In this document: one piece after another, positions 2,040-18,948 of the stretch
How the letters are laid out: each line of letters opens with the position of its first letter
Numbering within the stretch: position 1 is the first letter of the stretch
Source of the DNA: Clostridia bacterium
GTDB taxonomy: Bacteria > Bacillota > Clostridia > Oscillospirales > Acutalibacteraceae
DNA length: 39,326 nt
Direction: 5' to 3'
Assembly (NCBI GenBank): GCA_017621885.1
Contig: JAGASD010000031.1
Span: forward strand, 1 to 39,326
The notes under the pieces: generated by a model
The model's database searches: none
What the model was told of the DNA's origin: nothing
The model's input: the letters and a program-made list of their open reading frames with translations, nothing else
Made by a program: the position numbers and the translations under genes

Positions 2040-2074
2040 GACCGCAAGGCTTAATGGCTTTGCGGTCTGTTTTT
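2040..2074 (+). terminator. Rho-independent terminator after the YgjV-like gene
   Basis: GACCGCAA and TTGCGGTC form a GC-rich stem, extended imperfectly by GGC/GGC-side bases around an AT-rich loop, followed by TGTTTTTA. It isolates the YgjV unit from the operon that starts near 2236. Confidence 0.8.
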
Positions 2075-2199: not shown

Positions 2200-2229
2200 T
2201 TGACAATTTTTGTTCATAAATAGTATACT
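2200..2229 (+). promoter_or_regulatory. Sigma-A promoter of the VWA/tubulin-like operon
   Basis: A consensus TTGACA at 2200-2205 and TATACT at 2224-2229 are separated by 18 bases, which makes this one of the strongest promoter matches in the window. Transcription would start near 2236 and leave a leader of about 95 bases. The leader contains a small hairpin (CAACAC 2292-2297 with GTGTTG 2304-2309) just before a strong AAGGAGGG ribosome binding site at 2319-2326. The 125 bases upstream of the promoter hold no gene. Confidence 0.8.
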
Positions 2230-2331: not shown

Positions 2332-4596
2332 ATGAAGAGATTTATTAAAGGTTTTTACAGAGTTTCTTCATTGTTGCTTACGCTTTTAATGGTAGTTAAT
2401 ATATTTGCGATTATGCCGTTAACAGCAAATGCAGCAAAAAAGACGGAAAAAAGTTACGAAATTGCAATTGTTTTCGATAACTCAGGATCAATGTATGAAT
2501 TTGGGTCTACAAGTTGGTGTCAGGCTAAGTATGCTATGGAAGTTTTTGCTTCTATGCTCAATTATGAAAATGGGGATAAATTGTGGATATATCCCATGTG
2601 GAATGTTACCAACGGTGAACCTAAAAACGGTGATGAAGGTAGTTGTAATGCAATTTCTATTGACTCGAAGGATGATTTAATAACTATCAGGAATTTATAT
2701 ACAACAAAACCTTATGGTACGCCTCTTGCTCCTATTTTCGAAGCACACAAATATTTGAAAACCAGTAAAGCTACCGAAAAGTGGATTATTGTTCTTACAG
2801 ATGGTGAGTTCACATCTGAAGATAGGGAAGGCGCACCGATTACTGATGAACATAAAGATCTAAAGAAAACGCTTCTTTCGGTTGCTACAGATGGTATTAA
2901 GGTTCAGTATCTTGGTTTTGGTCAGGCTTCTGCGTTAGCTCCAGATGAAAGCAAAAATTTCTATGTTCCTAAAAAGGATGATAATAATCAAGAGAAGGAC
3001 CTTAAAGAGCAACTTATTGATATATGTAATAATATTTTCCAGAGAGCTGCGCTTCCCTCTGATAGATTATCCGGAAAATCATTAGATATTTCCGATTTGT
3101 CTATGAACAACCTTATTGTGTTTGCGCAGGGTTCAAATGCTAAAATTTCTTCAATGGTTAATCCATCCGGCAAAGATGTTAAAGTTACTCTTGATAGCGG
3201 GCGGATTCAATATAGTGAAATTACTGCAAAAGGTTACAAAGGCAAGACTACACCAAAAAAAGGTGAGCAATACGAGGCTGGTATTGATAATAAGCTTTAT
3301 GGTCAGGTCGTTTCTTTTGATAAGGCTGATGCCGGTAAATACACTCTTAATTATTCAGGTGCTGATAAGGTTGAAATTTTCTATGAACCCAACGTAAAGC
3401 TTAAAGTTGAATTTAAGGATGCTTCCGGTAAAGTTGTTGACGGTTCAAAAGGTGAAATTGAAGCCGGCGAATATACCGTTACAAGCACTATTATTGATGG
3501 TGTTACAGAGAAAAATGTAACCAATAATGAATTGTTGGGTGAGGTTAATATAAAAACATACGTTAAAACTTCAAAGGAAAAAGAATATAAAGCGTATGAT
3601 AACAATGCTAAAATTAATCTTACTCCTGACTCTGCAACTGACATTTATGTTGAAGCTACATATCTTAATGATTTCACTTTAAGCAGCCTTGACGATGAGT
3701 CTCTTGATTGGCTCACGGGTCTCAAGGTCGGTGCTCAAAGCCTTGATTTTAAAGTTAAAGCAAATGTTCAACAACCTGAAAACTGGTATAAAATCAGCGA
3801 TCACGAAAACTGGAAACCGGTTAAGTTCGATATAACAGTAAAAGGTAAGCCGTTAACTGCCGAACAGATGGCAAAGGTTAAGTTTTCAGTTGAAAAATCA
3901 GCAGGCGGCAAGCTTGATTATAAGTGTCAGCCGCTTCCGAATGAATCAGCATACGTTGTATATGTGGCTCAGGATAAAAACGGTAAATATGTTGAACCTG
4001 AAACAGGTGCGTATATACTTAAAGCTCAGGCATCCTATGTGGATGAATACGGTTCAACGCACACTGCCGATGATAGCGCAATGTTTGAAATTCAGACATA
4101 CGATAAATTCTGGCGTTGGTTATTCTGGATACTTATTATTCTTGTTCTTATTCTTCTGTGGTTGTTCTTTATGACCCGCAAGGTGTTACCCAAGAAGATA
4201 TCTAAAGATACAGGCGAAGTCAGAGTGGGAGCAAGAAATAAGCTTGATGAAAATTTTGTTGATGTTTCTTATAACCGTAAGAGAGGCACTATAACCGTGG
4301 AAACAAATGATGCGGTTTCTTACGATAATCAGGCATCTGTTACCCTTAAAATTGTTCCTGTAAATAATCAATTTACAAGGTCCAAGGATCGTTATTTTAA
4401 AGTTGTTAACATCAGCTCGGAAAACGACAGTGTTTCAATACAGGGTGTTCCTTATGTACAAAATGAGGAAGGTGTTTGGGTAATGAAGGCTCACGCTAAA
4501 ACCCAGAATCCGCCGCCCATTGATCAGGATACTATTAATCCGATTATTATTGTTAAGAGTCGGGCAACCCTGACAGGTAAATTAAAAAATGGTTAA
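2332..4596 (+). CDS. Secreted, membrane-anchored VWA-domain protein
   Basis: The 754-residue protein begins with a signal peptide (basic MKRFIKGFYR, hydrophobic core, probable cleavage after TANA near residue 35). A von Willebrand A domain occupies about residues 43-240: the MIDAS metal site reads D49-N-S51-G-S53, with PYGTPLA and VLTDGEF strands in the expected places. A long beta-rich region follows to about 590, then one membrane helix at about 594-617 and a basic stop-transfer (MTRKVLPKK). The remaining 135 residues form a cytoplasmic tail. VWA domains bind protein partners through a divalent metal, so an extracellular adhesion or sensing role coupled to the cytoplasm is plausible. It is the first gene of the operon, 19 bases before the tubulin-like gene. 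VWA proteins are known partners of one family of tubulin-like proteins, which supports a shared complex. The ligand is unknown. Confidence 0.85.
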   Translation: MKRFIKGFYRVSSLLLTLLMVVNIFAIMPLTANAAKKTEKSYEIAIVFDNSGSMYEFGSTSWCQAKYAMEVFASMLNYENGDKLWIYPMWNVTNGEPKNGDEGSCNAISIDSKDDLITIRNLYTTKPYGTPLAPIFEAHKYLKTSKATEKWIIVLTDGEFTSEDREGAPITDEHKDLKKTLLSVATDGIKVQYLGFGQASALAPDESKNFYVPKKDDNNQEKDLKEQLIDICNNIFQRAALPSDRLSGKSLDISDLSMNNLIVFAQGSNAKISSMVNPSGKDVKVTLDSGRIQYSEITAKGYKGKTTPKKGEQYEAGIDNKLYGQVVSFDKADAGKYTLNYSGADKVEIFYEPNVKLKVEFKDASGKVVDGSKGEIEAGEYTVTSTIIDGVTEKNVTNNELLGEVNIKTYVKTSKEKEYKAYDNNAKINLTPDSATDIYVEATYLNDFTLSSLDDESLDWLTGLKVGAQSLDFKVKANVQQPENWYKISDHENWKPVKFDITVKGKPLTAEQMAKVKFSVEKSAGGKLDYKCQPLPNESAYVVYVAQDKNGKYVEPETGAYILKAQASYVDEYGSTHTADDSAMFEIQTYDKFWRWLFWILIILVLILLWLFFMTRKVLPKKISKDTGEVRVGARNKLDENFVDVSYNRKRGTITVETNDAVSYDNQASVTLKIVPVNNQFTRSKDRYFKVVNISSENDSVSIQGVPYVQNEEGVWVMKAHAKTQNPPPIDQDTINPIIIVKSRATLTGKLKNG

Positions 4597-4615
4597 TATA
4601 TAGGAGGTATAAACT

Positions 4616-7600
4616 ATGGCAGGCAAAAAAGAAAAATTAAGTTGTAACGTTACCAAGGAAACATTGTTTATCGGTGTTGGCGGTATCGGTTCAAAAATTG
4701 TAAGAAGAGTTGCAGAAAGCTGTAAGGGTACAGAAACCGATAAAATCAATTTTGTTGTAATGGATACTAATGCAAACGACCTCAGGGCTGTTAAAAATTC
4801 CGGTGCAACAATTACTCACATTCAGACATCATCTACACAGAGTGTTCTTGATTATCTTAAAAAAGATGATGATGCAAGAAATAACTGGTTCCCCAATAAT
4901 ACAACTCTTTATCCTAAGACTGTTTCTGAGGGTGCAGGTCAGGTTCGTGCAATTTCAAGACTTGCTCTTAACGCTACAATCAAAACCGGTGAAATTCAGA
5001 AGCTTTATAAAGCTATTGATGATCTTTTCTTAAAAGACGGTGGTGACCTTAAACAGGCACTTCGTGTTGTTATCGTTTCAACTGCAGCAGGCGGCACAGG
5101 CTCAGGTATCGCTATGACTACAGGTATGCTTATCCGTGAATACTTGCATAAGCATTATCGTGAAAAAGCTGCTATTATCCGTGGTTATGTTGTTCTTCCC
5201 GGTGTTCTTGATACTGTTATCCGTACAGAAACAGAAAAAGAAAGCCTCAGAAGAAACGGTTACGCAACTATTAAAGAAATCAATGCCTTTATGATTAAGG
5301 CAAGCGGTTTCTGCTCGGTTCGTAAAGAACTTGAAAGATATAAAGATCTTTATATTGATATTCCCACAACTACCAAAGGCTTTGATAAACTCGAAGGTCT
5401 TCCCTTTGACTTCTGTTTCCTTCTTGACAGAACAGGTCAGAGCCAGGAAAGCATGCAGACTCTTGACCAGTATCTTGATTTTGCTGCTAAGAGCCTTTAC
5501 GAACAGAATATCGGACCTATGGAAAAGGATGCTTTCGGTATTGAAGATAACATCATTAAAGAATTTGCAAACGGCGATAACTTAGGTAGAAACCGTTTTG
5601 GCGGTATCGGTGCATCAACACTCCGTTATCCTTATGCTGATATTATTGATTACGTTGCATATGCAAAAGCAATCGATTGCATCGGTGACGGCGAGAGCGT
5701 TGGCGAATGGTTAAAATACGATAAGGCTTTCAGAATTGAAAAAGCTGAGTACAAGAAGAATCGTTCATTTACAAAGGATCCCGAGCCCACAAGAGCAAGC
5801 GTTTATATGAAAACATTAGAAAACGGCGAAGCTCCCTTTGATACTGATATTAAAGGTCTCCTTGTTAACGATGCTATTGATGATAAAGCTAAATTTATGA
5901 GCGAGATCGATACAAAGGTTGATAACTTTATTACTGCCTTTGAGGAGCGCGTTCTTAGTGACTTCCTTGCAGATGGTGATATTGATACCCGTACCTCTAA
6001 GGTTGAGCAGCTTCAGTCTAAGATTGATTTTGAAAAACATGAATCTGATTACGCAGCAAAGAGCCTTAAAGTTGTAAGAGATTATCAGGCTATGGTTAAA
6101 CGCGATGCTCCGTCTTCTGCAAAAACAACAGCAAAATCAATTCTCTATAAAGCTCCTTCTATTAATAACAAAGACCTTGCTGATTACAACCTCGAAAAGA
6201 TTCTTGTTGGTACTGAGGGTGCAATACATCCTAATGCTATGCGTTACATTCTTTATGTTTTGTCAGCAAAACTCAAAGACTTGTACGAAGGTGTTAAAGC
6301 TGAGCATAATGACGCAGTAGACGCATTAAGAGTTTACGGTCGAAACGTAAATAACAAAGAATTTTTTGATGTTCAGAAGGGTGTTGCAGGTAAGGATGTT
6401 GAGAAAAACTTTGATGATGTTGTAAAGCTTACAACTAAAGACGATTCCATTCTTTCAAAAATCGGTGGTATGAAGGCTGTTTGGGACAAACTCAACAACT
6501 TGTTCCCTGCTTTTGCTACAGGTGTTATCGATTATCGTGATATCGTTCTTAAAGAGCAGGCATACGGCGTAGCTCTTGAGTATGTAAACTCTCTTTCTGA
6601 AGAGTTCGAAGTATTCTATGATGCTTTTGAAAGAAATGTTATTATGCTTTCAAAAGAACAGCAGGAAATTGTTGATAAGCTCAAATTCAGAGACGGTGAT
6701 TGCACTGCTTACGTTTGTGCTAAGAAAGAGCATCTCGACAGAATTGCTGAAATTTGTGCAACATCAGGCGGTGGCTTAATGTTGCCCAGCGATTTGAACG
6801 CTAAAATTTATGATGCCGTTAAAATGAATGCAGAAAACAAACGTGTTGCTGCGGTTGATACTAACGAATCTAAGCCCAGAATTGACATCTTCAAAACGAT
6901 TCTTATTGAATACTTTAAAGATACAGTTACAAATGATTGTGATGACATTATAAATATCGACGTTATTAAAGCTATTTCTCAGGAATTGGAATTTAATGAG
7001 TTCTTTAAACTTCGTGAAGAAGCAGAAGAGGGTGAGCCTGTATTTAAACCTGAGATTTCTGATTCTAAGAAATATGATTATCTCAGAGATAAATTCAGAT
7101 TCGGTAACAAGTTGGCTGCCCCCGGTATCGGTTGTGCTAACTTTAATGAGCCTCGTGACGTTTTGCTTTGTGCATACAACTATAAGCTTGATGAAATGAG
7201 AGACCTTAGCATTCCTAAGATTGTTGAACCCTTCAGAATGAATGCAACAGGTACAAAAACAGTTTCAAAATACGATATCTGCTTCTTTAATGCCCTTTAC
7301 AACATCACTCCTGATATGTTAGCTCGCTTCAAGAGTCCCGAGGATTGCAAAGAGGATGAACAGTACAGTGAAGAGCCCGGTATTTATTACAAGGCTTACC
7401 ATGATTATATTAAGAATATCGGTCCTGATTCAACAAAGAGCTCAACAATTTCATTACATATTGATAAGCGTTGGGATGCTTTAGTTGCAATGCCTGAAAT
7501 TTCTCTTGATGCCCACTACAATGAAATGCTTAAAATCCATTCTGCTTTGATTTACGGTATTGTTCACGGTATGATTATTACTCATCCTTCATCAAGATAT

Positions 7601-8209
7601 GATGCAAAGAAACGCATTTTTGCTCTTGAAGATACTGAAGGTGACAGAACATCGCTTGTAGTTTCAAATAACACTGAATGTGACGAATTCTATGAGGTTC
7701 TTGATGCACTTTACAGAGACAGAGCTTCTGTTTCAAAGATTTATGAAATGCAGGAAGAACGTTGCAAGTTTGACATTGAAACTAACCGCAGGTATTCAGA
7801 AAGCGCATTTGTTCGTGATACTGCAAACTTTAAAATCGGTGACGGCCACGATTCGCCAACAAGTATTTTTGAAATTCCCTTGGCATATTATAACTCATTG
7901 CCTCGCTCAAAGATGGATGATAACGAAGTTTCAATTATGATTGATAGTGTGATTTCAGTTCTTGAAAAAGAGGTTTCTAAATACGAACAGGAAGTTGACA
8001 GAGATGCATTCCTTGCAAGTCGTCTTGAAGCTCAGTTTAAGTTGTTAATTAAGAATTTTGATGAATACGATGTTCTTAAGAAAAACTCAACTCTTCAGGA
8101 AAACAGAGTTGTTAATATGGTATTCCGTAAAGTTACAAATAAGCTTAAAAGATTGGGCGTTCATAAGGTTGATGACAGAGTAGAGGAACTTCGTGCACTC
8201 ATTAAGTAA
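4616..8209 (+). CDS. Tubulin/FtsZ-superfamily protein (Tubulin_2-like)
   Basis: The 1197-residue protein has an N-terminal tubulin-type GTPase domain. A glycine-rich T1-like loop, GVGGIGSK, lies at about residues 20-27, followed by strand FVVMDTN. The tubulin signature loop is seen as AGGTGSG at 158-164, with ATP/GTP-binding-fold strand VVIVST before it. The rest, to 1197, is a large mostly helical and charged extension without a motif I recognise. FtsZ is about 350-400 residues and has a different C-terminus, so this is not the division protein. It fits the long tubulin-like family (PF13809) proposed by Makarova and Koonin, from memory, as part of a membrane-remodelling system with a VWA protein. 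It has no membrane segment and is presumably cytoplasmic, meeting the membrane through its operon partners. GGAGG precedes the start. Polymerisation and nucleotide use are inference. Confidence 0.85.
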   Translation: MAGKKEKLSCNVTKETLFIGVGGIGSKIVRRVAESCKGTETDKINFVVMDTNANDLRAVKNSGATITHIQTSSTQSVLDYLKKDDDARNNWFPNNTTLYPKTVSEGAGQVRAISRLALNATIKTGEIQKLYKAIDDLFLKDGGDLKQALRVVIVSTAAGGTGSGIAMTTGMLIREYLHKHYREKAAIIRGYVVLPGVLDTVIRTETEKESLRRNGYATIKEINAFMIKASGFCSVRKELERYKDLYIDIPTTTKGFDKLEGLPFDFCFLLDRTGQSQESMQTLDQYLDFAAKSLYEQNIGPMEKDAFGIEDNIIKEFANGDNLGRNRFGGIGASTLRYPYADIIDYVAYAKAIDCIGDGESVGEWLKYDKAFRIEKAEYKKNRSFTKDPEPTRASVYMKTLENGEAPFDTDIKGLLVNDAIDDKAKFMSEIDTKVDNFITAFEERVLSDFLADGDIDTRTSKVEQLQSKIDFEKHESDYAAKSLKVVRDYQAMVKRDAPSSAKTTAKSILYKAPSINNKDLADYNLEKILVGTEGAIHPNAMRYILYVLSAKLKDLYEGVKAEHNDAVDALRVYGRNVNNKEFFDVQKGVAGKDVEKNFDDVVKLTTKDDSILSKIGGMKAVWDKLNNLFPAFATGVIDYRDIVLKEQAYGVALEYVNSLSEEFEVFYDAFERNVIMLSKEQQEIVDKLKFRDGDCTAYVCAKKEHLDRIAEICATSGGGLMLPSDLNAKIYDAVKMNAENKRVAAVDTNESKPRIDIFKTILIEYFKDTVTNDCDDIINIDVIKAISQELEFNEFFKLREEAEEGEPVFKPEISDSKKYDYLRDKFRFGNKLAAPGIGCANFNEPRDVLLCAYNYKLDEMRDLSIPKIVEPFRMNATGTKTVSKYDICFFNALYNITPDMLARFKSPEDCKEDEQYSEEPGIYYKAYHDYIKNIGPDSTKSSTISLHIDKRWDALVAMPEISLDAHYNEMLKIHSALIYGIVHGMIITHPSSRYDAKKRIFALEDTEGDRTSLVVSNNTECDEFYEVLDALYRDRASVSKIYEMQEERCKFDIETNRRYSESAFVRDTANFKIGDGHDSPTSIFEIPLAYYNSLPRSKMDDNEVSIMIDSVISVLEKEVSKYEQEVDRDAFLASRLEAQFKLLIKNFDEYDVLKKNSTLQENRVVNMVFRKVTNKLKRLGVHKVDDRVEELRALIK

Positions 8210-8242
8210 TTTATTTTATAGTTTTTAAGGGGAGGTTATATA

Positions 8243-10480
8243 ATGTTTACGGTAATTTTTGCCGAAAAAGAAACAATTAAACTCTTCGAAGAAACTAAAA
8301 TGTTTTTTGGCCCGTTGTTAGATTCAAAAAATATTGCATTTTGCGAATGGAACAAATATGCCGATACTTTTGATGAAATGGTTCCCGATATTTATGATAT
8401 TGTTGAATTTCAAAAAGAGTGGCGTGCGATTGTTTTAGATAACAATAATATTGAAAAAATTAATCCCTTTGATTTTACTGAGTATTCCGACAGATGTGAA
8501 TACGATGAATGTATTAACTGGGAGTATTTAAAAAATCGTCGTAACGGCAGACTTGCTTCTTATGAAAAAGCGGTGGATAACCCGTTAGTAAAGTTGACTA
8601 CCGCTTTATGCGAAATGCCAAAACTTAAATCGGTCATTTCTGATGATGCTGATTATCAGGCGTTGATTTCAGGCGAAATGGAAACTTATGAGTTTATGCT
8701 CAAATCACAGTTTGCTGAAGTCAATTGCAGAGAAGTGGCAATAAGGCTTGAAAGGTTTCAACGTGAATCTCTTGTTAAGTTTGTTGAAGAAAAGAACATT
8801 GATGATTTGATTAAATGTATTGAAAATGCCGATGTATCGGGAATAGTCAGCCTTATTCCCGATACGGATATTGTTCGTTTTATTAAATTCATCGGTGTTG
8901 ACCCGACTTTTTATGACCCGGAATACACGGAGTGTATGATTGAAAATACAAAGAGAGTTGCGCTGCTTAATAAGATTTACGAAAACTTTTCAATGAAAGA
9001 TAAGCTTCCTGCTGAGGTTGTTTGTCTTTCACCAAGAACATTCGACTTCGAAAATTTCGAGATGGATGTCAAGTGGGATGACAGAGATGAAAAGGATTAT
9101 TCCCGATTCGCTGACTTTAATTTATTTAATGATAAATTAAAATTTATGCTTTATGACATTCTTCCCGATGATAACAAGCAATATAAATTTGATCAAATTA
9201 AAATGTTATGCTTGTTGTTACTGGTTGCCAATAACGATATCCCTCAGGGCTGTATGAATGCTAATCAGGTTTATCGTGCTGATATTGAGTTTAACAAAGA
9301 TATCGTTACTGATATTTGCGAAAAGTATATCAGTAAATTGCGTTCTACAGAGGTGCTTTTAAAGGAAATTGAGTCAGACCTGGAGCATGATTTTGAAGAT
9401 TCTATTGATGACGAAACTGCCGAAAGACTCTTTGAATCAGATGTGCAGATTCCCGTGACTACTCGCGGAAAAGTTGATACAGTAGATCTTTTTGCAAATT
9501 ACAGCTCTATAGGTTTGTCAAACGATTGTCCTGAAAATGAGGCTTATTTCTGGAGCAATCAGTATAGAGATATTAACAAGAAATTTATTAAATATCTCAG
9601 AGAGCCCCGCCGTGCAGTAAAAACTGCTGTTAACGAGGGCTTAAAAAAGAACAATGTTATTGATGATGATCGTTCACTTGTTTTATCTGAATTTCAGTCA
9701 GAGGATGTTAATTATCATTTGCTTGAAGAAGAACATACGATGAACAAAACAGCAACGACACAAATATATAACACAAAGCGTTTTAACGAACAAATTGAAG
9801 AAGCTGACAAAGAAATCAAAAGGGGAATAGCCCAAAGAATGTCGCGTTCACAGACAATTAATATCGCTCTTGTTGCTTTGGGTGGATATTTGTTTGGATT
9901 TTTACCTTTAATTATCGGCAATTTGTTTTCACCTACGGCAATTATTGTCGGTCTTGTGATTACAGGGGTTATGATGCTTGCTTTTGCTGCAGTCGGACTT
10001 TTCAGATTGTTTTCTTTACGCAGAAAATTAATCAATCGTTTTAAGCATTTCAATTATGTGATTAGCGGAATTTGTGATGAAATTAACGCATCTTTGACTG
10101 AATTTTCTGTTTATCTCAGTAAAGCCTGTAATGTCATGAGAGGTTTTTCTGCTTTGGAAAAAAGAGAATCAAGTTTGAGTAAGCATAAAAAAATATTAGC
10201 TTATCACGATAATAAAATTAAAGAGCAAATAGGCAATGTTAACGATATGTTCTCCAAATATGTTGATCTCAAAAACCTCAATATTGTTGAGTGTGATCCT
10301 TATGACTATGATTTCACTGTATTGAAGGAATATTATTATGAAATGCCCCGTGTATATTCATCAAAACGAATTGAATATATGCAAATCGGTAATGAAATCA
10401 TTATTCCGGTTGACTACGTTGATTCAGTATTATTAATCAGGGAGGAATTATATGAGCGCAATATTAACAAGCATAATTAA
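8243..10480 (+). CDS. Unrecognised 745-residue membrane protein of the tubulin-like operon
   Basis: I do not recognise a known family. The first 500 or so residues are acidic and look soluble. A charged, probably coiled-coil stretch (about 505-535) leads into two adjacent membrane helices at about 540-557 and 564-588, closed by a basic FRLFSLRRKLINRF. A second helical region (about 600-680) and a short C-terminal domain follow. The hairpin-like pair of helices would put both large domains on the same side, probably the cytoplasm. A GGGGAGG ribosome binding site supports the ATG at 8243. The last 29 bases overlap the next gene in another frame, so the two are translationally coupled. Its place between the tubulin-like gene and the giant membrane protein suggests a membrane adaptor. 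That role is inference. Confidence 0.75.
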   Translation: MFTVIFAEKETIKLFEETKMFFGPLLDSKNIAFCEWNKYADTFDEMVPDIYDIVEFQKEWRAIVLDNNNIEKINPFDFTEYSDRCEYDECINWEYLKNRRNGRLASYEKAVDNPLVKLTTALCEMPKLKSVISDDADYQALISGEMETYEFMLKSQFAEVNCREVAIRLERFQRESLVKFVEEKNIDDLIKCIENADVSGIVSLIPDTDIVRFIKFIGVDPTFYDPEYTECMIENTKRVALLNKIYENFSMKDKLPAEVVCLSPRTFDFENFEMDVKWDDRDEKDYSRFADFNLFNDKLKFMLYDILPDDNKQYKFDQIKMLCLLLLVANNDIPQGCMNANQVYRADIEFNKDIVTDICEKYISKLRSTEVLLKEIESDLEHDFEDSIDDETAERLFESDVQIPVTTRGKVDTVDLFANYSSIGLSNDCPENEAYFWSNQYRDINKKFIKYLREPRRAVKTAVNEGLKKNNVIDDDRSLVLSEFQSEDVNYHLLEEEHTMNKTATTQIYNTKRFNEQIEEADKEIKRGIAQRMSRSQTINIALVALGGYLFGFLPLIIGNLFSPTAIIVGLVITGVMMLAFAAVGLFRLFSLRRKLINRFKHFNYVISGICDEINASLTEFSVYLSKACNVMRGFSALEKRESSLSKHKKILAYHDNKIKEQIGNVNDMFSKYVDLKNLNIVECDPYDYDFTVLKEYYYEMPRVYSSKRIEYMQIGNEIIIPVDYVDSVLLIREELYERNINKHN

Positions 10481-13400
10481 AATGTTTGTGGCAATTCTTC
10501 CCTTTGTGGTGATTTGTCTTTCTGCAAAGAAGGTTAATTTACCTAAACCTGACCGTAGTAAACAATTTATTATGCCGGTTGTAGCAATAGTTTACGTTAT
10601 TATTGCCATGATTTTAATCAGGCCACTCAACACTGCTGTTATTGCATTGTTCGGTTGGTTGCCAAAATTATTAGGCGGTTTGAGTATTTTAGGCGGGTTG
10701 AGTTCAATTTTATCAGCCTTACTCGGCGGTTTGAATATTAAGTTTTGGGCATTCTTTATCTCAAACATTGTTATAATGTCGGCATATCTTTCCTTAAAAA
10801 AGATTTGTCTTGTGTTCATCAAGAAAATATTAAAGGAAGATTCAAGCGATTTACACCAGAAGGTTGCAAGCAACTTTTATGAATTCTTTCCCGAAAGAAA
10901 CAAATGGTGTCTGAGGGATCAATATGTTCAGGCGCGCAGCATGTTTAAAACATTTTTCTACGGTGCGCTTATTCTTTCTACGTTTTTGATGTTTATAAGC
11001 CGTTTCCTGTATTTGTTCGGTCTTATGAAATCAATATTCTATCCGGTTTTCGGTATACTTATTGTAAGTGAATTCTATTTCTATCTTGATGGTTTAACTA
11101 AGCGTGAGTATTGTAATGATATTCTCGGTGAAGATGAAAATGCATACAAGATTGTAAACTATTCATTGCTCAGAAAGTTTTTGCGTTCTGTTTTCGGTGA
11201 TAAGCTTATCAGTGAAAATACAAGCATTAATGCAAATGCTTCCTATCATCTTACTACTGATGATGTTATAAATGAGCTTGAGAAGTCAGAAGATCAAAAA
11301 ATACAGAATTTTGCCCTTTTTGTAGATGGTCTTAAAAAGAGCGGCTTTGCATTTGATAACAATTACTTGCATTCCACTGTTGATATGCTTAATGGTAAAA
11401 GTGTTTTGTTTAACAATCCGTTTTATAATGACCTTATTCCGTATGCGTTTTATCCTATGAACAGAACTCTTTTGAGTCATCAAAAGGTTCTTGTAATTCT
11501 TGGCAGACACGCTATTGAATACGATGTTAAGGATTGGATTGAAAAGGGTATAGAGTCTGTTACTAATATTCCGTTTATGTGGAATATAGGTATACTTGAT
11601 TCTGAATCAAAGGATTTGGATATTGGTATTGTAACCAGATCCGACGTTCTGGATATTGAAATGCATAATGCCAATTCTGAATTTTTAGAAAAGGTCAATT
11701 ATGTTGTTATAATCGAACCTTCAAAGCTTATCTCAACCGCACAGATAGGACTCAATCTTCTTGCGAAAAAATGCAGAACCGAAGAAGACAAGAACATTGT
11801 TTATTGTATGTGTGATAAAAACTGTGACGGTCTTGTTGATGCGATGTCACATACCCTTATGGCAGACATTACGGAAGTTTCTGCAACTCGTAAGCATCAG
11901 GGAACGTCCTCGTATATGTGCTGGGAAGCTGATAGTGATTATTTACATCATAGACTTGTTCCGAATATTTCAAGATACCTCGGTATAGGTACTGAATTGT
12001 CATTTGCTGCACTGAAAAATCAAGTTTCAAAAACAACCTGGTATGGTGGCGATGCTTTTCCGGTTGTTGATATGCATTGGATTGACAGTCAGTATTATTA
12101 TGACCTTACCAAATACGCAAATCTTCCTTCAACCCAGGATTCAATGAATGATTTTTTCCATACTTCACAGAATTTCTGGAGTGCAGAGGTTAATCGAGAC
12201 AGTTATATTACTGTTGAAGATGAAGCTTTCAATATGTTTGAGATTCTTCGCGATTTCTCTACAAGAACAACAGAGCAGGGCTTTATAAATGTTATTTCTT
12301 CCGATTATCTTCTGAAGGATTATATGGCTGATAATGCGTCAATTTTTGAAACGGATGCTAAGGCAATTCCTTATATTGTTTCTGATTACACAAGAAGTAA
12401 TCGTAATACAATTCTACGTTTGCTGCTTATGCTGAGCACTGCACCCGTAAGCTCAAAAGTTCTTGAAAAAGAATTATCTCTTTTGGGTGTTTCTGTTTTT
12501 GATTTGAAAAAACAGCTTTGGTTTGAGATTTATAATTGTTATTCGGATATTTCATCAACATCTGATATTTCCGAAGATTATAAAGCTGCCGTAAACTCTG
12601 TTTATTCAAAATCCATTGAGTTGGGCGGTATTAATTGGAAGCCCTCAGTTATTAAATCTGAGGAGAAATTTAACGTTAAGACAGGGGATTTTGAAACTCT
12701 TTATTTTGTGGCAGATAAGAGATTTTCTGCTTTGTGTGTAGCCGATTCGCGTTCTGCAAGTTATGTTGCTGAAGATGAAAAAGGTCAGAGATACTACTTA
12801 GGTTCTGAGCTTTCAGGACATATTTATCAGAAATATTTACCCGGTCAATTCTTTACTTTTGCCGGTAAGTATTATGAGATGCAGTATCTTACTGCCGATA
12901 ATCAGATTCTTGTACGCAGAGCAGCAGATCATATCACGTCTCGTCCTGCTTACAGACAGATTCGCGATTACACAATACATGGTGTTAAACCTTCTTTAAA
13001 AATCGGTGATATCAAAGATGTTGAAGGAATGAAAATCCGCAAAATGTTTGCCGATATCAGCGTTTCAACACCGGGTTATTATCGAATGGAGCGTTATAAT
13101 GATTTTTCTTCGGCTAAAAAAGTTACTTTTGAGGGCGACGAAACTTCAATTCCGAAACGCGTTTACCGTAACAAAGAAATTCTTTGTATTGAGTTACCTG
13201 AAATTAACGGTAAACTCAATGATAACATCAGATATACAATAACTGTTTTATTTAATGAGATTTTCAAAACCATTTTTGCTGAAAATCAGGCGTATGTTTG
13301 CGCTGTTACAGATGAATCTTTTATTGGTGATGATGAAAAGCTTATTTCTACTTATTCAGTTAAGGGCGACGGTTATGAGCTCCAAAATAATGTTATTTAT

Positions 13401-16118
13401 ATTATTGAGGATAGTCAGCTCGATTTAGGTCTTACTGTTGCAGTTGAAAGAAATCTGGAAAGAATTCTTGCTATAGTTAATGATTACCTTGATTGGCATC
13501 TGGATGCTCTTGAAAAGAGTCTTAATCCTCCGCCTGAACCCAGACCTCACGTTGTATTTACCGAAGAGGATAACGTTGAACCTCCTAAGGAAAAGGGTAT
13601 TAAGGCAATTATTGCTAAAATTAAAGGATTCTTTAAAAAGCTTATAGAAAAAATTAAAAACTTTTTCAAAAGAAAAGGTAAAAAGCCCACGGATGAAACT
13701 CCTGCAGACGAAACTCCTGCAGACGAAACTCCTGCAGATGAAATTCCTGCGGACGAAATTTCTGCAGATGAAACTCCTGCAGATGAAATTCCTGCAGATG
13801 AAGCTCCTGCGGATGAAACTCCTGCAGATGAAATTCCTGCAGTTGAAACTCCTGCAGATGAAACTCCTGCGGACGAAATTCCTGCGGATGAAATTCCTGC
13901 AGTTGAAACTCCTGCGGACGAAATTCCTGCTGTGACCCCTGTTGTGACAGAAGATATTTCAGAAGGCGGCAATGATTTGTACGGTAAAATTTCTGATAAT
14001 TCTGTTGAGATGGCTGATGAAAGCATCGTTTATGAAACCGAAGATGATTGTGTTGCTGAAAAAGGTTTCGTAATAGCCAGAAAGCCTTATCATGAACGTT
14101 ATTATCTTCTTTACGGAAGAGAAAACGAGGTCGGTCAGTTAGATGTAACCGGTACTTTGGCGTATTTGAAAGAATTGGGATTACAGCGTAACGCTCTTAA
14201 ACAAGCACGCGACGGCAAAAAAATAGCAGATTATATTGAGCAAACCTTTAAGCCGGGGAAAGCAGATGCACGGTATTGTGATTTCTGCGGAGCAGAAATT
14301 TACGGTGTTGAATACGAAACTCTTGCCGACGGTCGTGACCGTTGCATAAATTGCGGCAGAACTGCAATTAAAACCGGCGAAGAATTCCGTAAGATTTTTG
14401 AAGACGTTAAAAGAAATATGGAGTCTTTCTATGGTATTAAAATCAATACCGGTATTAAGGTTGAGATGGTTAATGCAAAAAAACTTCATAAGCGTCTGAA
14501 AAAAGCTTTTATTCCCACACCTAATGCTGATGGTCGTGTTCTCGGTGTCGCTATCAGTGACAAAAACGGTTATACATTGATGATTGAAAACGGCTCTCCC
14601 AGAATGGCATCTATGATGACAATGGTTCATGAGCTTACTCACATTTGGCAGTATATGAACTGGGATGATAAAGCAATTCGTCAAAAATACGGAAATCTTC
14701 GACTTGAAGTATATGAAGGTATGGCCAAGTGGGCGGAAATCCAGTATGCTTACCTTATTAATGAACCTGCTGTTGCTAAACGCGAGGAAATCATTACCTC
14801 TTGTCGGGATGATGAATATGGCAGAGGCTTCCTCAGATATTTGTGCAATTATCCCTTCTCATTGGGTACGGTTATAACTAAGCCTACACCGTTTATGAAT
14901 ATCGAGACGCCTCTTGATTCTGAGTACTGCGGTGGTATAAGAGTTCTTACACCCGAAGAGATTGCACGTGAAACCGATGATACAACCGTTCCGGGTGATG
15001 ATTTTATTCCGGTGTCTGAAAATATTGAGGGTACAATAGAAAGAGACACAGAAGCTGTTTTCAGGTATGCATACAACCATCTTAATGACAGCGAAAAGAA
15101 AGCATATGATGTTATTCTTGACGCAATAATGAATTTTGCCGATGTTATATCGCCGTTTACGGTTGAGATTACTACCGATCAGATCAGTAAGATAGTTGAA
15201 TATATTTATGCTGATCATCCGGAAATTTTCTGGATAAGACACGGTGTAACCTGGAGCTACAGCGTCGATACCGGTCTTGTTAATAAGGTTGAATTTACAT
15301 ATTGTTTAACTCAACAAGAAGCTGAGTCGCGGCAGAAGAAGATTGATATGTCGATTAAATCGTTCTTAGCCTCAATTACGGATAGTATGAGCGATTTCGA
15401 GGTTGCTTTACGTGTTTACGAAAATATCATTTCGCTAGTCGACTATGATACCATCGGTTTAAATAAACAGAAAAAGGATGGTAAGCCGGCTCCTGAGATG
15501 CCTGACGATCTGCGTTCCATTTATGGTGTTTTTGTAAATAAAAAGGCTGTGTGTGCAGGCTATGCAAAGGCTGCTCAGTACCTGTATAATCTTCTTGGTA
15601 TTGAGTGTGTATATATTGTTAGCGATACACATGCATGGAATCTGATTAAGCTTGAAGGTGATTATTATCATCTTGATGTTACCTGGGGCGATCAAAGTAA
15701 TACGGATTCTCGTAAGGATGGCGGCAATGATGTGAGCTATGCTTGCTTCTGTATTACAACTAAGGAGGTATTAAACCTCAAGGAACACACACCTGAGGAT
15801 ACCTTGCCTCTTCCCGAATGCACAGCGACTAAGTGCAACTATCATGTCCGACTCGGACTGTTCTTTAATGAGATTAACTCTGACAGAGTCAGAAACATTA
15901 TTTCTAAATGTGTTCAGACACAGAAGAGTTCAGTATCCTTTAAATTCTCTTCCGCTGACTTACTCACGGAAGCAAAAAAACAATTGGTTGATGGCGGAAA
16001 AATCGGTGAGTTTATCCGCTATGCAAACCTTACCGCTTCTCAGAAATTCGATGTTTCGTATAACTATAGCATCAGTGAAGAGAAGTGTATTATGACAATT
16101 TGTTTTAATAAAATATAA
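10452..16118 (+). CDS. Giant multi-domain membrane protein with metalloprotease-like and transglutaminase-like domains
   Basis: This is an 1888-residue protein. About six membrane helices lie within residues 1-205. A long middle region (about 210-1060) has no motif I can name and no P-loop. It is followed by a basic KKLIEKIKNFFKRKGKK segment and sixteen five-residue Asp-Glu-Thr-Pro-Ala-type repeats (1081-1160). Next come a zinc-ribbon-like CxxC-x18-CxxC (Cys 1276, 1279, 1298, 1301) and an HExxH site (HELTH 1393-1397) with a likely third ligand Glu 1422 in YEGMAKW, a gluzincin-like pattern. The C-terminal third is a transglutaminase-like cysteine domain with Cys 1701 (VCAGYA), His 1727 (THAW) and Asp 1742 (YHLDVTWGD). 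It may thus cleave or cross-link proteins. Whether the catalytic end is inside or outside the cell cannot be settled by eye. A GGAGGA site at 10440-10445 sets the start, overlapping the previous gene by 29 bases. Confidence 0.85.
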   Translation: MSAILTSIIKMFVAILPFVVICLSAKKVNLPKPDRSKQFIMPVVAIVYVIIAMILIRPLNTAVIALFGWLPKLLGGLSILGGLSSILSALLGGLNIKFWAFFISNIVIMSAYLSLKKICLVFIKKILKEDSSDLHQKVASNFYEFFPERNKWCLRDQYVQARSMFKTFFYGALILSTFLMFISRFLYLFGLMKSIFYPVFGILIVSEFYFYLDGLTKREYCNDILGEDENAYKIVNYSLLRKFLRSVFGDKLISENTSINANASYHLTTDDVINELEKSEDQKIQNFALFVDGLKKSGFAFDNNYLHSTVDMLNGKSVLFNNPFYNDLIPYAFYPMNRTLLSHQKVLVILGRHAIEYDVKDWIEKGIESVTNIPFMWNIGILDSESKDLDIGIVTRSDVLDIEMHNANSEFLEKVNYVVIIEPSKLISTAQIGLNLLAKKCRTEEDKNIVYCMCDKNCDGLVDAMSHTLMADITEVSATRKHQGTSSYMCWEADSDYLHHRLVPNISRYLGIGTELSFAALKNQVSKTTWYGGDAFPVVDMHWIDSQYYYDLTKYANLPSTQDSMNDFFHTSQNFWSAEVNRDSYITVEDEAFNMFEILRDFSTRTTEQGFINVISSDYLLKDYMADNASIFETDAKAIPYIVSDYTRSNRNTILRLLLMLSTAPVSSKVLEKELSLLGVSVFDLKKQLWFEIYNCYSDISSTSDISEDYKAAVNSVYSKSIELGGINWKPSVIKSEEKFNVKTGDFETLYFVADKRFSALCVADSRSASYVAEDEKGQRYYLGSELSGHIYQKYLPGQFFTFAGKYYEMQYLTADNQILVRRAADHITSRPAYRQIRDYTIHGVKPSLKIGDIKDVEGMKIRKMFADISVSTPGYYRMERYNDFSSAKKVTFEGDETSIPKRVYRNKEILCIELPEINGKLNDNIRYTITVLFNEIFKTIFAENQAYVCAVTDESFIGDDEKLISTYSVKGDGYELQNNVIYIIEDSQLDLGLTVAVERNLERILAIVNDYLDWHLDALEKSLNPPPEPRPHVVFTEEDNVEPPKEKGIKAIIAKIKGFFKKLIEKIKNFFKRKGKKPTDETPADETPADETPADEIPADEISADETPADEIPADEAPADETPADEIPAVETPADETPADEIPADEIPAVETPADEIPAVTPVVTEDISEGGNDLYGKISDNSVEMADESIVYETEDDCVAEKGFVIARKPYHERYYLLYGRENEVGQLDVTGTLAYLKELGLQRNALKQARDGKKIADYIEQTFKPGKADARYCDFCGAEIYGVEYETLADGRDRCINCGRTAIKTGEEFRKIFEDVKRNMESFYGIKINTGIKVEMVNAKKLHKRLKKAFIPTPNADGRVLGVAISDKNGYTLMIENGSPRMASMMTMVHELTHIWQYMNWDDKAIRQKYGNLRLEVYEGMAKWAEIQYAYLINEPAVAKREEIITSCRDDEYGRGFLRYLCNYPFSLGTVITKPTPFMNIETPLDSEYCGGIRVLTPEEIARETDDTTVPGDDFIPVSENIEGTIERDTEAVFRYAYNHLNDSEKKAYDVILDAIMNFADVISPFTVEITTDQISKIVEYIYADHPEIFWIRHGVTWSYSVDTGLVNKVEFTYCLTQQEAESRQKKIDMSIKSFLASITDSMSDFEVALRVYENIISLVDYDTIGLNKQKKDGKPAPEMPDDLRSIYGVFVNKKAVCAGYAKAAQYLYNLLGIECVYIVSDTHAWNLIKLEGDYYHLDVTWGDQSNTDSRKDGGNDVSYACFCITTKEVLNLKEHTPEDTLPLPECTATKCNYHVRLGLFFNEINSDRVRNIISKCVQTQKSSVSFKFSSADLLTEAKKQLVDGGKIGEFIRYANLTASQKFDVSYNYSISEEKCIMTICFNKI
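13692..13931 (+). repeat. 15-bp tandem repeat, 16 units, in frame
   Basis: Sixteen consecutive 15-base units of the form GAtGAAACTCCTGCa encode variants of Asp-Glu-Thr-Pro-Ala (also Asp-Glu-Ile-Pro-Ala, Val-Glu-Thr-Pro-Ala and single Asp-Glu-Ile-Ser-Ala and Asp-Glu-Ala-Pro-Ala units). Because the unit is a multiple of three, gain or loss of copies keeps the frame. The encoded acidic, proline-rich stretch is probably an extended spacer between the membrane-proximal and catalytic halves of the giant protein. Confidence 0.97.
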
Positions 16119-16145
16119 ATTGTTAAAATTTTTTCGTCTTCCCCC

Positions 16146-16175
16146 TTGAAAATGGGGGAGGGCGAATTGTATAAT
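16146..16175 (+). promoter_or_regulatory. Internal promoter for the RyR/PrsW/TIR unit
   Basis: TTGAAA at 16146-16151 and TATAAT at 16170-16175 are 18 bases apart, in the 109-base gap after the giant gene. The -35 lies exactly in the loop of a GC-rich hairpin (arms 16138-16145 and 16154-16161, TTCCCCC with GGGGGAG). There is no T-run after the hairpin, so it is not a standard terminator. Transcription from here would give the next three genes independent control. Confidence 0.7.
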
Positions 16176-16227
16176 TAGTTTGAAAATAATCCTTTAATGG
16201 TTAATATAGATTTTTTGAGGTATTCTT

Positions 16228-18045
16228 ATGTTTTGGGAAATCTTTTTAGTTAGTTCTGTATTGTGTTTATCAGCATCTCTGTTCTTAACTTTGTTCAAGA
16301 AAAAGTTGAATATCGGTTTTTTATTAAAATTAGATAATGTTAATATTTTAATTTGCGGTGTTGCTTTAGCTTCGGTTATTGCATTTATTCCGGTGTATTA
16401 CAATGCTTTTGTAACCACAGATTGTAATTTTTTTGAAACGCTTTTTATTTCCGTTCATAATACCATCAGACTTTTTGTTGTTGACGGCGACTATGATTTT
16501 ATAATCGGTAATATCAAGGATTTATCTTACTATACCTTTAAGGCTTATTCTGTATATTTTGCAATTTTGTATGTGTTAGCCCCTGTGTTCACATTCAGTT
16601 TTGCATTATCCTTTTTCAAAAATTTATCTGCATATAGAAAATATTTCACTCATTTTTATTCTGATGCCTATATTTTTTCAGAGCTTAACGAGCGTTCTCT
16701 TGCTCTTGCCGAAAGCTTAATGATGAAAAAAGACAGCAAGAGGATAATAGCTTTTACCGATGTTTTTGATCATAATGAAGAAAAAACATACGAGATGTTG
16801 GAAAGAGCAAAAAATATTGGTGCCGTATTATTTAAAAAAGATATTATCAGCGTTGATTTTTCACGGCACCACAAAAAGTCTAAGTTAACTTTTTTTATAA
16901 TAGGTGAAGACCACAACGAAAATCTTAGCCAGTCATTATCTATTATAGAAAAATTTAAATATAGAAGTAATACTAATTTGAATTTGTTTACTTACAGAGT
17001 TGAAGATGAGTTACTTCTCGCAGGTTGCTATGAAACAAAAGATGGAGAAAGTGACCAAAACATTAAAATCAAAATCAGAAATATAAACGATGCACAGTCA
17101 TTGGTGTTAAGAACTCTTTTTGATAATGGTTACGAAAATGTTTTTAAAAGTGCGATTGATAACGGTGAAAACAAGAAGATAAATGCTGTTGTAGTCGGTA
17201 TGGGAAGACACGGCATTGAAATGACAAAGGCCTTGTCCTGGTTCTGCCAAATGGACGGTTATGTTGCGGAAATAAATGCATTTGATTTAAATAATGATGC
17301 AGAAGATGTATTTTGTTCTATGTGTCCTGAGCTTATGGCACCGGGGTTCAATGGTAACTTTTCCGATCCTGGTGAAGCACAGTATAAGATTTCTGTTCAC
17401 TCAGGTATTAATGTAGAAACAAAAACTTTTGATGATAAAATTATATCTTTGGATACACCGACTTATATTTTTGTTTGTTTAGGTGATGATGCTATAAATA
17501 TCGCTACGGCAATAAAACTCAGAACCTTGTTTGCAAGATACAGGAAATTTCCTGTGATTCAGGCGGTTGTTTATAACAGTGATAAAAGGAATGCACTTGT
17601 CGGTGTCAAGAACTTCAAAAAACAAAAATATGATATAGACTTCATTGGTGATTTAAAAGAATCTTATTCGGAAGAGGTTGTTCTTAATTCTGATATTATT
17701 CAACTTGCATTACAACGCCATTTGCGTTGGGGCGACGAAGAAGATTTTTGGAGATATTCTTATAATTATAAGTCTTCTGTTGCTTCAGCCATTCATCGCA
17801 AATTGAAGATTCAGTGCAAAATACCCGGTGCCGACATTCCTGACCCTGCAAAGAGGTCTGATGAAGACAGACACGCTTTACGTGTCCTTGAACATAGGCG
17901 CTGGAATGCATATATGCGTTCAGAAGGTTATGTCTTTGGCGGTACAATTGAACCCGCGGGCAGGTTTGACCTTGCTAAGCAGCATAATTGTCTTGTTACT
18001 TTTGACGATTTGCCTGAATCTGAGAAGATTAAAGATGACGATTAA
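16228..18045 (+). CDS. Membrane protein with TrkA/RCK-like Rossmann fold and C-terminal RyR domain
   Basis: The 605-residue protein has three or four membrane segments in residues 1-135. Two regulator-of-conductance-like halves follow. The first (about 145-270) has Rossmann-type strands (RIIAFTDV, FFIIGEDH) but no glycine motif. The second (about 318-480) starts with VVGMGRHG, giving G324-x-G326-x-x-G329, a typical NAD(H)/nucleotide-binding loop. The last 55 residues match the RyR domain (PF02026) pattern: LEHRRWNAYMRSEGYVFG (His 556, Trp 559), then KQHNCLV, FDDLPESEK and a terminal Asp cluster. Architecturally it resembles RCK-gated ion channels, though I cannot point to a selectivity filter. 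It could be a ligand-gated channel or a nucleotide sensor. GAGGT precedes the ATG. It heads the second transcription unit and ends 18 bases before PrsW. Confidence 0.75.
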   Translation: MFWEIFLVSSVLCLSASLFLTLFKKKLNIGFLLKLDNVNILICGVALASVIAFIPVYYNAFVTTDCNFFETLFISVHNTIRLFVVDGDYDFIIGNIKDLSYYTFKAYSVYFAILYVLAPVFTFSFALSFFKNLSAYRKYFTHFYSDAYIFSELNERSLALAESLMMKKDSKRIIAFTDVFDHNEEKTYEMLERAKNIGAVLFKKDIISVDFSRHHKKSKLTFFIIGEDHNENLSQSLSIIEKFKYRSNTNLNLFTYRVEDELLLAGCYETKDGESDQNIKIKIRNINDAQSLVLRTLFDNGYENVFKSAIDNGENKKINAVVVGMGRHGIEMTKALSWFCQMDGYVAEINAFDLNNDAEDVFCSMCPELMAPGFNGNFSDPGEAQYKISVHSGINVETKTFDDKIISLDTPTYIFVCLGDDAINIATAIKLRTLFARYRKFPVIQAVVYNSDKRNALVGVKNFKKQKYDIDFIGDLKESYSEEVVLNSDIIQLALQRHLRWGDEEDFWRYSYNYKSSVASAIHRKLKIQCKIPGADIPDPAKRSDEDRHALRVLEHRRWNAYMRSEGYVFGGTIEPAGRFDLAKQHNCLVTFDDLPESEKIKDDD

Positions 18046-18063
18046 GGTTGAAAGGATGTTTTT

Positions 18064-18930
18064 ATGGGATTAAATGAAATCCTTTTGGTATGTGCAGCTT
18101 TGATACCTGCAATTGTTCTTGCTGTTTACATTTTCATTAAAGACCGAGCCGAAAAAGAACCAATCAAATTGTTACTTGTTTTGTTGGTTTGCGGTGTCAT
18201 CAGTTGCTTTCCTGCGATGTTTATTGAAGATGCACTTATATCAGCGATAAACTCTGTGTTTGGTGTTGCAACCGATTTACCTGTGTTTTCTGATAATTTA
18301 ACAAACATTTTATATCAGTTTAGTTTTAATTTTATCGGTATCGCTTTAGTCGAAGAAGGATTGAAATGGCTTTTCCTTTTTTTCATTACAAGAAAAAACA
18401 AGAATTTTAACAGCTTGTTTGACGGAATAATTTATGCAGTTTTTGTTTCACTCGGTTTTGCTGCTTTTGAGAATATTTTATACGTTTTAGAATACGGTTG
18501 GGGGACAGCGATTTCCAGAGCCATTCTTTCAGTGCCGGGTCATATGTTCTTTGCCGTTGTAATGGGTTATTATTATAGCTTGTGGAATGTTTATGAAAAG
18601 GCAAAACGTCAAGAAGCAGTTTTCGATAATAATGGAATGATACACATTACTTCAAAGAGATTCAGCGGTAAAAAACATCTGTTGTTATCTTTGTTGGTTC
18701 CTGTTTCAATCCATGGTTTCTATGATTTTTGTTGTTCATTCTCAAGCTTCGGGTCAACTATTATCCTTATTGTTTTTGTGATTTTTCTTTACATTTACTG
18801 CTTTAGAAAGATAAGGGATATATCAAAAAAAGATACAGCAGATGTTGCGGTTTCTTTTTCACTCGTTTGTAAAAAATACCCCGGATTGCTCGGGAAAATA
18901 ACTGAAGCAAACAGTCAAAATGTAAATTGA
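18064..18930 (+). CDS. PrsW-family intramembrane protease
   Basis: The 288-residue protein has about seven to eight hydrophobic segments and the family's conserved motifs inside them: EEGLKW (about residues 98-103), FDGIIYAVFVSLGFAAFEN (about 119-137) and late HGFYDF (about 219-224). These are the glutamates and histidines proposed as the metal site of PrsW (PF13367). In Bacillus subtilis PrsW makes the first cut in the anti-sigma factor RsiW. No anti-sigma factor is adjacent here. The nearest single-pass membrane proteins are the TIR-LRR protein 18 bases downstream and the VWA protein, so either could be a substrate; that is inference. An AAAGGA-type ribosome binding site precedes the ATG. 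The C-terminal 40 residues are soluble. Confidence 0.9.
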   Translation: MGLNEILLVCAALIPAIVLAVYIFIKDRAEKEPIKLLLVLLVCGVISCFPAMFIEDALISAINSVFGVATDLPVFSDNLTNILYQFSFNFIGIALVEEGLKWLFLFFITRKNKNFNSLFDGIIYAVFVSLGFAAFENILYVLEYGWGTAISRAILSVPGHMFFAVVMGYYYSLWNVYEKAKRQEAVFDNNGMIHITSKRFSGKKHLLLSLLVPVSIHGFYDFCCSFSSFGSTIILIVFVIFLYIYCFRKIRDISKKDTADVAVSFSLVCKKYPGLLGKITEANSQNVN

Positions 18931-18948
18931 ATTTTTGTGGTGAATTAT

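Follow-up and report, generated by a model that had tools for sequence, protein, structure and literature searches.

A conserved four-gene FtsZl1-VWA cassette of Clostridia with a predicted membrane-anchored pseudo-helicase and a fused peptidase domain

A cassette of four genes, encoding a VWA protein, an FtsZl1/Tubulin_2 protein, a membrane protein with two TM helices (TM2), and an 1,888-residue membrane protein (BIG), was found on a contig of a Clostridia bacterium (family Acutalibacteraceae; JAGASD010000031.1, positions 1 to 39,326, the whole of which is referred to below as the window). It belongs with the FtsZl1-VWA systems but departs from them in its conserved fourth part, a putative pseudo-helicase/peptidase protein. 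The largest conserved portion of BIG is a predicted SF2 helicase fold that appears to be dead, a feature that is new relative to an earlier note on this DNA. Coordinates of all features are given in Table 1.

Table 1. Features of the cassette and its surroundings in the window
Feature	Positions	Strand	Basis
Terminator-like stem-loop, upstream of operon	2040..2067	+	Pattern scan; 1 found versus a shuffle mean of 0.2
Sigma-70/A-type promoter, TTGACA-18-TATACT	2200..2229	+	11 of 12 consensus bases; rests on match quality, weaker sites being equally common by chance (1 found, shuffle mean 2.1)
VWA protein, 754 aa; signal-like N terminus, VWA, one TM helix, tail	2332..4596	+	ORF, hydropathy
FtsZl1/Tubulin_2 protein, 1,197 aa	4616..8209	+	PF13809, E 4e-54
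TM2, 745 aa; two TM helices (~541-584), no recognized fold	8243..10480	+	Hydropathy, AF2
BIG, 1,888-aa membrane protein	10452..16118	+	ORF; conserved downstream gene
BIG residues 1-215, multipass membrane region	10452..11096	+	Hydropathy
BIG residues 216-1030, putative SF2 (MrfA/DUF1998-like) pseudo-helicase core	11097..13541	+	Predicted fold; motifs absent
BIG four-Cys zinc ribbon with HExxH peptidase domain	14163..14912	+	Conserved motifs; HELTHIW, codons at positions 14628-14648
BIG optional transglutaminase-like domain	15069..15776	+	NCBIfam MAG6410 family, E 6e-17, below cutoff
Possible separate promoter ahead of RyR gene, TTGAAA-18-TATAAT	16146..16175	+	3 promoter-like sites versus a shuffle mean of 1.3
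605-aa membrane protein with three helices, a TrkA/RCK-like domain, and a C-terminal RyR domain	16228..18045	+	Family matches to PF02026/TrkA_N
PrsW-family intramembrane protease	18064..18930	+	PF13367, E 2e-33
TIR domain, one TM helix, and leucine-rich repeats (TIR-LRR)	18937..20892	+	PF13676, E 4e-19; PF12799, E 2e-26

A four-gene unit conserved among relatives

The four open reading frames (ORFs) occupy positions 2332 to 16118 and are separated by gaps of 19 and 33 bases, followed by a 29-base overlap between the TM2 and BIG genes. A recount returned the same positions, lengths, gaps, and overlap as the earlier note, and the consensus promoter that it had placed ahead of the operon was recovered with the qualification given in Table 1. 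A pattern scan of positions 16000 to 16300 found no terminator between the BIG and RyR genes. The RyR, PrsW, and TIR-LRR genes may form a second transcription unit, because a promoter-like site of their own precedes the RyR gene.

Conservation was assessed in the best 80 of 369 tubulin relatives, obtained by a scan of genome contigs in which distant forms are undersampled. As labeled, these 80 were mostly from Clostridia (Ruminococcus, Oscillospiraceae, Lachnospiraceae, and the like), with rumen or gut as a frequent sample source; single records were labeled otherwise, one as Proteobacteria. Some of the loci belong to genomes that are also in a set of 300 same-family genomes (e.g., locus L043 and genome G003), and the HMMs run on the 80 loci were built from relatives in that set. 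The tubulin, RyR, BIG-core, and Castor/Pollux searches were taken as covering a single 300-genome set on the basis of matching handles. For alignment A3, 64 relatives were reduced to 61 at <85% identity and L061 was omitted as well, which leaves the window plus 60; A4 and A6 comprise 62 of 69 and 52 of 60 available rows, respectively, and A5 comprises 20 chosen rows.

The four genes, which the earlier note had read as one system, do co-occur in relatives. Among the best 80 of 369 loci, TM2 comes after the tubulin gene in 71 of the 73 loci with contig room and BIG in 68 of 70, with order and strand kept; the grouping is therefore not due to chance. The two exceptions both have damaged tubulin genes: in L048 a broken tubulin gene is followed by part of an RyR gene, and in L105 the tubulin gene stops at 391 aa. 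Tubulin matches were obtained in 16 of the 300 same-family genomes (own genome included), and the BIG core was found in 13, all within these 16. With the window's own genome excluded, the core was present in 12/15 tubulin-bearing genomes and 0/284 others (Fisher P of 5e-19; like those below, this test wrongly assumes that genomes are independent). The independent backing for BIG in genome G107, where A3 gave no core match, comes from a C-terminal blastp match only, and the local HMM that found its core had included G107 itself. The cassette appears to be accessory, since its tubulin occurs in so few of the family genomes and was found in none of the three further members of the genus on the 300-genome list. 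Pairwise divergence of the VWA protein, the tubulin, TM2, and the first 1,060 aa of BIG is correlated (r of 0.68 to 0.88; 0/300 permutations). The whole cassette is also carried by Pseudoflavonifractor sp. An44 (L058), the record of which is not labeled as a MAG and by its title may come from an isolate.

In the VWA protein, a plain hydropathy script placed an N-terminal hydrophobic stretch, one C-terminal transmembrane (TM) helix at residues ~597 to 615, and a tail of ~139 aa, in agreement with the earlier reading of a secreted VWA protein with a cytoplasmic tail. The VWA domain is accordingly drawn, as a prediction, outside the cell and the tail inside it. No Pfam match of the VWA domain was over the cutoff (best, VWA_2, E of 0.14), and the assignment rests instead on an intact DxSxS MIDAS motif (DNSGS, codons at positions 2476 to 2490) and on the relatives. 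Among those from the best 80 of 369 loci, the motif is present in 69/70 VWA proteins and a single C-terminal TM helix in 69/70, with tails of 109 to 166 aa; the VWA gene adjoins the tubulin gene in 79 of the 80. Three tandem VWA paralogues precede the tubulin gene in one locus (L033, positions 10773 to 18581; genome G240).

The tubulin-like protein, predicted to be cytosolic, was linked in the earlier note to the VWA-associated tubulin-like family of Makarova and Koonin, and profile evidence places it in that family, FtsZl1/Tubulin_2: residues 17 to 350 match PF13809 with 184.5 bits against a cutoff of 27. A match to PF00091 (E of 3e-7) is just below the cutoff, and in a whole-genome scan two PF00091 segments sum to 37.6 bits against a cutoff of 33. 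The GTP-binding T4 loop GGTGSG (codons at positions 5090 to 5107) occurs in 74/74 tubulin relatives from the best 80 of 369 loci; in the longer motif GGGTG(S/T)G, the first G is replaced by A in the window protein. The accessible text of PMC9871819 separates Tubulin_2 proteins from canonical FtsZ and tubulin. A role of the cassette tubulin in cell division seems unlikely, because the same genome has an ordinary FtsZ-type match on a different contig. Genome G107 has, apart from its cassette-type locus (L034), another and different FtsZl1-type tubulin gene beside a TIR gene (L036, positions 3381 to 8076), where neither TM2 nor BIG was matched. A record labeled "Bacteriophage sp." (L193; MT836542.1) has a VWA gene together with an incomplete tubulin gene belonging to this family and may be a bacterial contig.

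TM2 had been described as an unrecognized two-helix membrane protein, and so it remains: two hydrophobic helices are kept in 66/68 relatives from the best 80 of 369 loci, a structure search with the AF2 model gave no PDB match at an E value of ≤0.001, and no convincing Pfam family was found, the scattered matches resembling those of TM segments. The AF2 model itself is confident (pLDDT of 90.5, pTM of 0.70) and places long helices beside the TM hairpin. The overlap between the TM2 and BIG genes is 8 bases in the median relative from the best 80 of 369 loci. The TM2 gene is split in L112 and L119. The TM2 profile missed the gene that separates tubulin from BIG in the distant loci L034 and L035; the product of this gene is of the same size as TM2 and has two TM helices.

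Predicted pseudo-helicase core and catalytic domains of BIG

The core of BIG is confidently predicted to have an SF2 helicase fold, with MrfA nearest to it; the predicted structure includes both the SF2 and the accessory-domain fold of MrfA/DUF1998 helicases. None of the 61 core members had a Pfam match at an E value of ≤0.01. Walker A (motif I) is missing: the loop that joins strand 102-105 to helix 110-126 of the core reads NNPFY or similar in the 12 variants listed, and its P108 and F109 are invariant across 61 members. A GxGK[ST]-type pattern occurs anywhere in the core in 2/61 members, and GK[ST] falls within residues 95 to 125 in 40/61, lying in the printed rows at the strand start, before the loop. 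The DExD/H box (motif II) was found in 0/61 members; an EPSK-like stretch stands in its place in the printed rows, and E207 and P208 are invariant in all 61. Because neither Walker A nor DExD/H was found on the predicted SF2 fold, we regard BIG as a putative membrane-anchored pseudo-helicase that would have lost its motor. A second, diverged BIG-like gene of 1,193 aa, with no peptidase domain matched, was observed in genome G290 (L179, positions 14045 to 19745), close to the end of a contig and next to a gene encoding a one-TM protein of 723 aa, with no tubulin gene in view.

The earlier note had proposed an enzymatic partner with protease-like and transglutaminase-like domains; of these the peptidase holds, and the transglutaminase proved not to be a fixed component. 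HExxH is present in 59/59 relatives from the best 80 of 369 loci, and the motif and the four Cys of the zinc ribbon are invariant across the 52 rows of A6, though the ribbon pattern was picked up in 50/59 relatives. Downstream of HExxH, E185 of A6 is conserved in at least 90% of rows and may be the third ligand. Weak matches to the putative metallopeptidase family DUF6782 were obtained for 51/52 peptidase-domain members, and to the DA1-like family PF12315 for 8/52 at an E value of ≤0.1, with 0.0052 as the best value and no match in the window genome; no curated peptidase family was over the cutoff for the window's own domain. Among the best 80 of 369 loci, the domain is present in 58 of the 59 with enough downstream contig and is a separate ORF directly after BIG in 11 of the 80. 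The transglutaminase-like domain, in contrast, occurs in 13 of these best 80 of 369 loci and is fused to BIG in 9. Its MAG6410 match in the window is below that equivalog's cutoff, as is the match to Transglut_core (E of 0.003), and a Cys-His-Asp triad can be read in AVCAGYA, HAWN, and LDVTW. By pattern, all three triad motifs are present in 7/9 fused relatives; L094 has a single one of them and L099 lacks them all.

For BIG, hydropathy gave five helices before residue 260 in 30/59 relatives and between three and eight in the others. The core, the peptidase, and the transglutaminase-like domain probably face the cytosol, since in a reading of hydropathy and positive loops by hand, K/R-rich loops follow helix 1 and precede the last two helices. 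Between pseudo-helicase and peptidase (window positions ~13690 to 13980, BIG residues ~1080 to 1175) lie low-complexity repeats of the PADE[T/I] type; several relatives have a different P/E-rich repeat in the linker.

Neighboring genes and possible functions

Channel-like genes are the most frequent neighbors of the cassette. In a clustering of flanking ORFs from the best 80 of 369 loci, relatives of the RyR protein accounted for 21 loci, a Castor/Pollux-like RCK channel for 14, and the next cluster for 5; of the loci of at least 20 kb drawn from the same best 80 of 369, 22/39 have one or the other. The RyR family matches PF02026 in 11/20 members at an E value of ≤0.1 (best, 8e-8) and TrkA_N in 6/20, as well as PDB chains of ryanodine-receptor domains; the match of the window protein itself to PF02026 is partial (E of 0.10). 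Strong RyR-protein matches occur in 10/15 tubulin genomes and 4/284 others (P of 2e-12) at a threshold of E < 1e-80 that was chosen after the list had been viewed; at E ≤ 1e-5 the counts are 11/15 and 11/284. The four nontubulin genomes with strong matches are 80 to 86% complete. The Castor/Pollux-like protein, a weak label (Castor_Poll_mid, E of 8e-4, below the cutoff, in one of two proteins), is present in 6/15 versus 3/284 genomes (P of 4e-7), the query having come from G225, which is itself among the six positives; it also occurs in the window genome on another contig. The association with channels exceeds mere neighborhood, because several of the RyR and Castor/Pollux-like genes are unlinked to the cassette.

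Genes of other kinds recur around the RyR gene. The RyR-PrsW-TIR-LRR trio is kept together in G003 and G148, and RyR genes adjoin a TIR-LRR gene in G235, another TIR gene in G222, and a DUF4062/NACHT gene in G111. A gene with a Card1-like endonuclease domain was observed at L164 (positions 9959 to 11206; PF09002 over the cutoff), and ORFs judged similar by eye were seen in L166, L168, and L100; those in L164, L166, and L168 stand beside RyR-type genes. On the window, PADLOC matched only TIR-type models; with respect to Thoeris, a TIR protein is present and the RyR protein is a candidate effector. The position of a TIR gene beside a gene for an RyR-domain channel-like protein suggests cADPR-type signaling.

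The architecture of the cassette is solid; its function is what we infer. Our preferred reading, held tentatively and with somewhat less than even confidence, is an accessory system of sensor, tubulin switch, and protease that would act in envelope stress or conflict (anti-phage or anti-competitor) and not in cell division. The VWA domain would read a ligand or damage at the cell surface and signal via its tail to the tubulin, the GTP-dependent assembly of which would serve as a threshold switch. The motorless pseudo-helicase may be a scaffold or recognition module that keeps the peptidase inactive until tubulin assembly frees it to cut cytosolic or membrane substrates. The RCK/RyR and Castor/Pollux-like channels, and here also PrsW and TIR-LRR, would be interchangeable neighbors. 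The conflict flavor comes from the enrichment of both channel families in tubulin genomes and, in several genomes, from the presence of TIR, PrsW, Card1-like, and NACHT/DUF4062 genes close to RyR genes. Two observations speak against a switch-protease system, namely, that no PADLOC model matches the four core proteins and that the peptidase, unlike many effectors, is not swapped among relatives, in which only the transglutaminase and the channels vary.

One alternative is a membrane-remodeling cytoskeleton, in which a polymer would shape or vesiculate the membrane, with the VWA protein and TM2 as anchors, BIG as organizer, and the peptidase trimming components. Three of the four proteins are in the membrane, the long helices of TM2 lie beside its TM hairpin, and both the family and its VWA partner are those of the FtsZl1 systems behind the original proposal; that proposal was, however, itself built on gene context (Makarova and Koonin 2010; PMC2875224, as far as its available text extends), and remodeling has no need of an invariant peptidase or of co-occurring channel and TIR genes, so that we consider it possible but rather unlikely. 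It is improbable that BIG and TM2 form a secretion or surface-protein processing complex that processes or cross-links envelope proteins under VWA control: the predicted outside location of the VWA domain and the HExxH and transglutaminase-like domains would suit such a complex, but the hand reading of topology places the catalytic domains in the cytosol, and no secretion ATPase was recognized among 25 flanking gene clusters, most of them judged by eye without a Pfam search.

The operon and the RyR-PrsW-TIR-LRR genes could also be a single anti-phage locus, with the TIR protein making a cADPR-type signal that gates the RyR protein. All seven genes are on one strand here and in G003, and phage RyR-domain proteins are reported to bind, sequester, or cleave cADPR isomers (RyDEP preprint, PMC13232231, in its available portion). 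Yet the trio is unlinked to the cassette in G148, most cassettes of the best 80 of 369 loci lack an RyR-type gene, and RyR divergence follows that of the four core proteins weakly (r of 0.20 to 0.40; for tubulin, 27/300 permutations reached the observed value). This weak codivergence and the RyR gene's own promoter-like site argue against the RyR protein as part of the system, and a single locus is unlikely. We give a still smaller chance to a signalosome resembling those of innate immunity, in which an extracellular VWA receptor would trigger tubulin assembly on a membrane-bound dead helicase, the helicase would sense foreign nucleic acid or the polymer and activate the metalloprotease, and cADPR made by linked TIR proteins would open RCK channels via their RyR domains; if true, bacteria would have their own counterpart of cADPR-gated RyR channels.

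The description of FtsZl1 tubulins dates from 2010 (PMC2875224), and the literature as available to us has yet to settle what they do. A vague idea of membrane remodeling now gives way to testable predictions: one FtsZl1 clade has a fixed four-part makeup, a putatively dead helicase as the membrane core common to its members, a catalytic site that is invariant and open to mutation, and two channel families that co-occur with it. The invariant HExxH is the most useful handle, and the cassette in Pseudoflavonifractor sp. An44 means that there may be a workable host. If the prediction is right, the fusion of a protease to an SF2 pseudo-helicase anchored in the membrane would surprise specialists in both enzyme classes, and the adjoining TIR and RyR-domain genes make a bacterial cADPR-RyR link testable.

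Comparison with known systems

The peptidase domain shares a zinc ribbon, HExxH, and a downstream conserved Glu with HExxH metallopeptidases (DUF6782, DUF6055, BSP, and DA1-like), to which BIG has weak matches in many members, none of them over a curated cutoff for the window domain. BIG differs from MrfA, a DUF1998 SF2 helicase, in being membrane anchored and peptidase fused, without Walker A and DExD/H.

The GAP1-N2/DO-GTPase conflict systems (Kaur et al. 2020; PMC7159879, in its accessible text) likewise combine a tubulin with an extracellular-VWA protein, and a role near the membrane has been proposed for them. Their Firmicute forms have two tubulins, two VWA proteins, a DO-GTPase, and GAP1, whereas the window has one tubulin, one VWA protein, no matched P-loop GTPase, and an added pseudo-helicase/peptidase. 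Pfam, NCBIfam, and PADLOC gave no DO-GTPase or GAP1 match, with inclusion of such models in these libraries unconfirmed.

The closest known systems are those of FtsZl1/Tubulin_2 and VWA described by Makarova and Koonin (2010; PMC2875224), which share with the cassette the tubulin family, the adjoining VWA gene, and many membrane partners. The available main text of that paper makes no mention of a protease, transglutaminase, or helicase, and its supplementary partner families may include TM2 or BIG homologues. The earlier note had found no GTPase or OmpA-type partner here, and Pfam agrees: apart from the tubulin itself, no P-loop GTPase, kinase, or OmpA match was obtained for the window genes at positions 834 to 20892, and no P-loop GTPase or OmpA partner was recognized by eye among the 25 flanking clusters. 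Where the FtsZl1-VWA systems, in the text available, frequently but not obligatorily have GTPase, OmpA, and kinase partners, the window cassette has TM2 and BIG.
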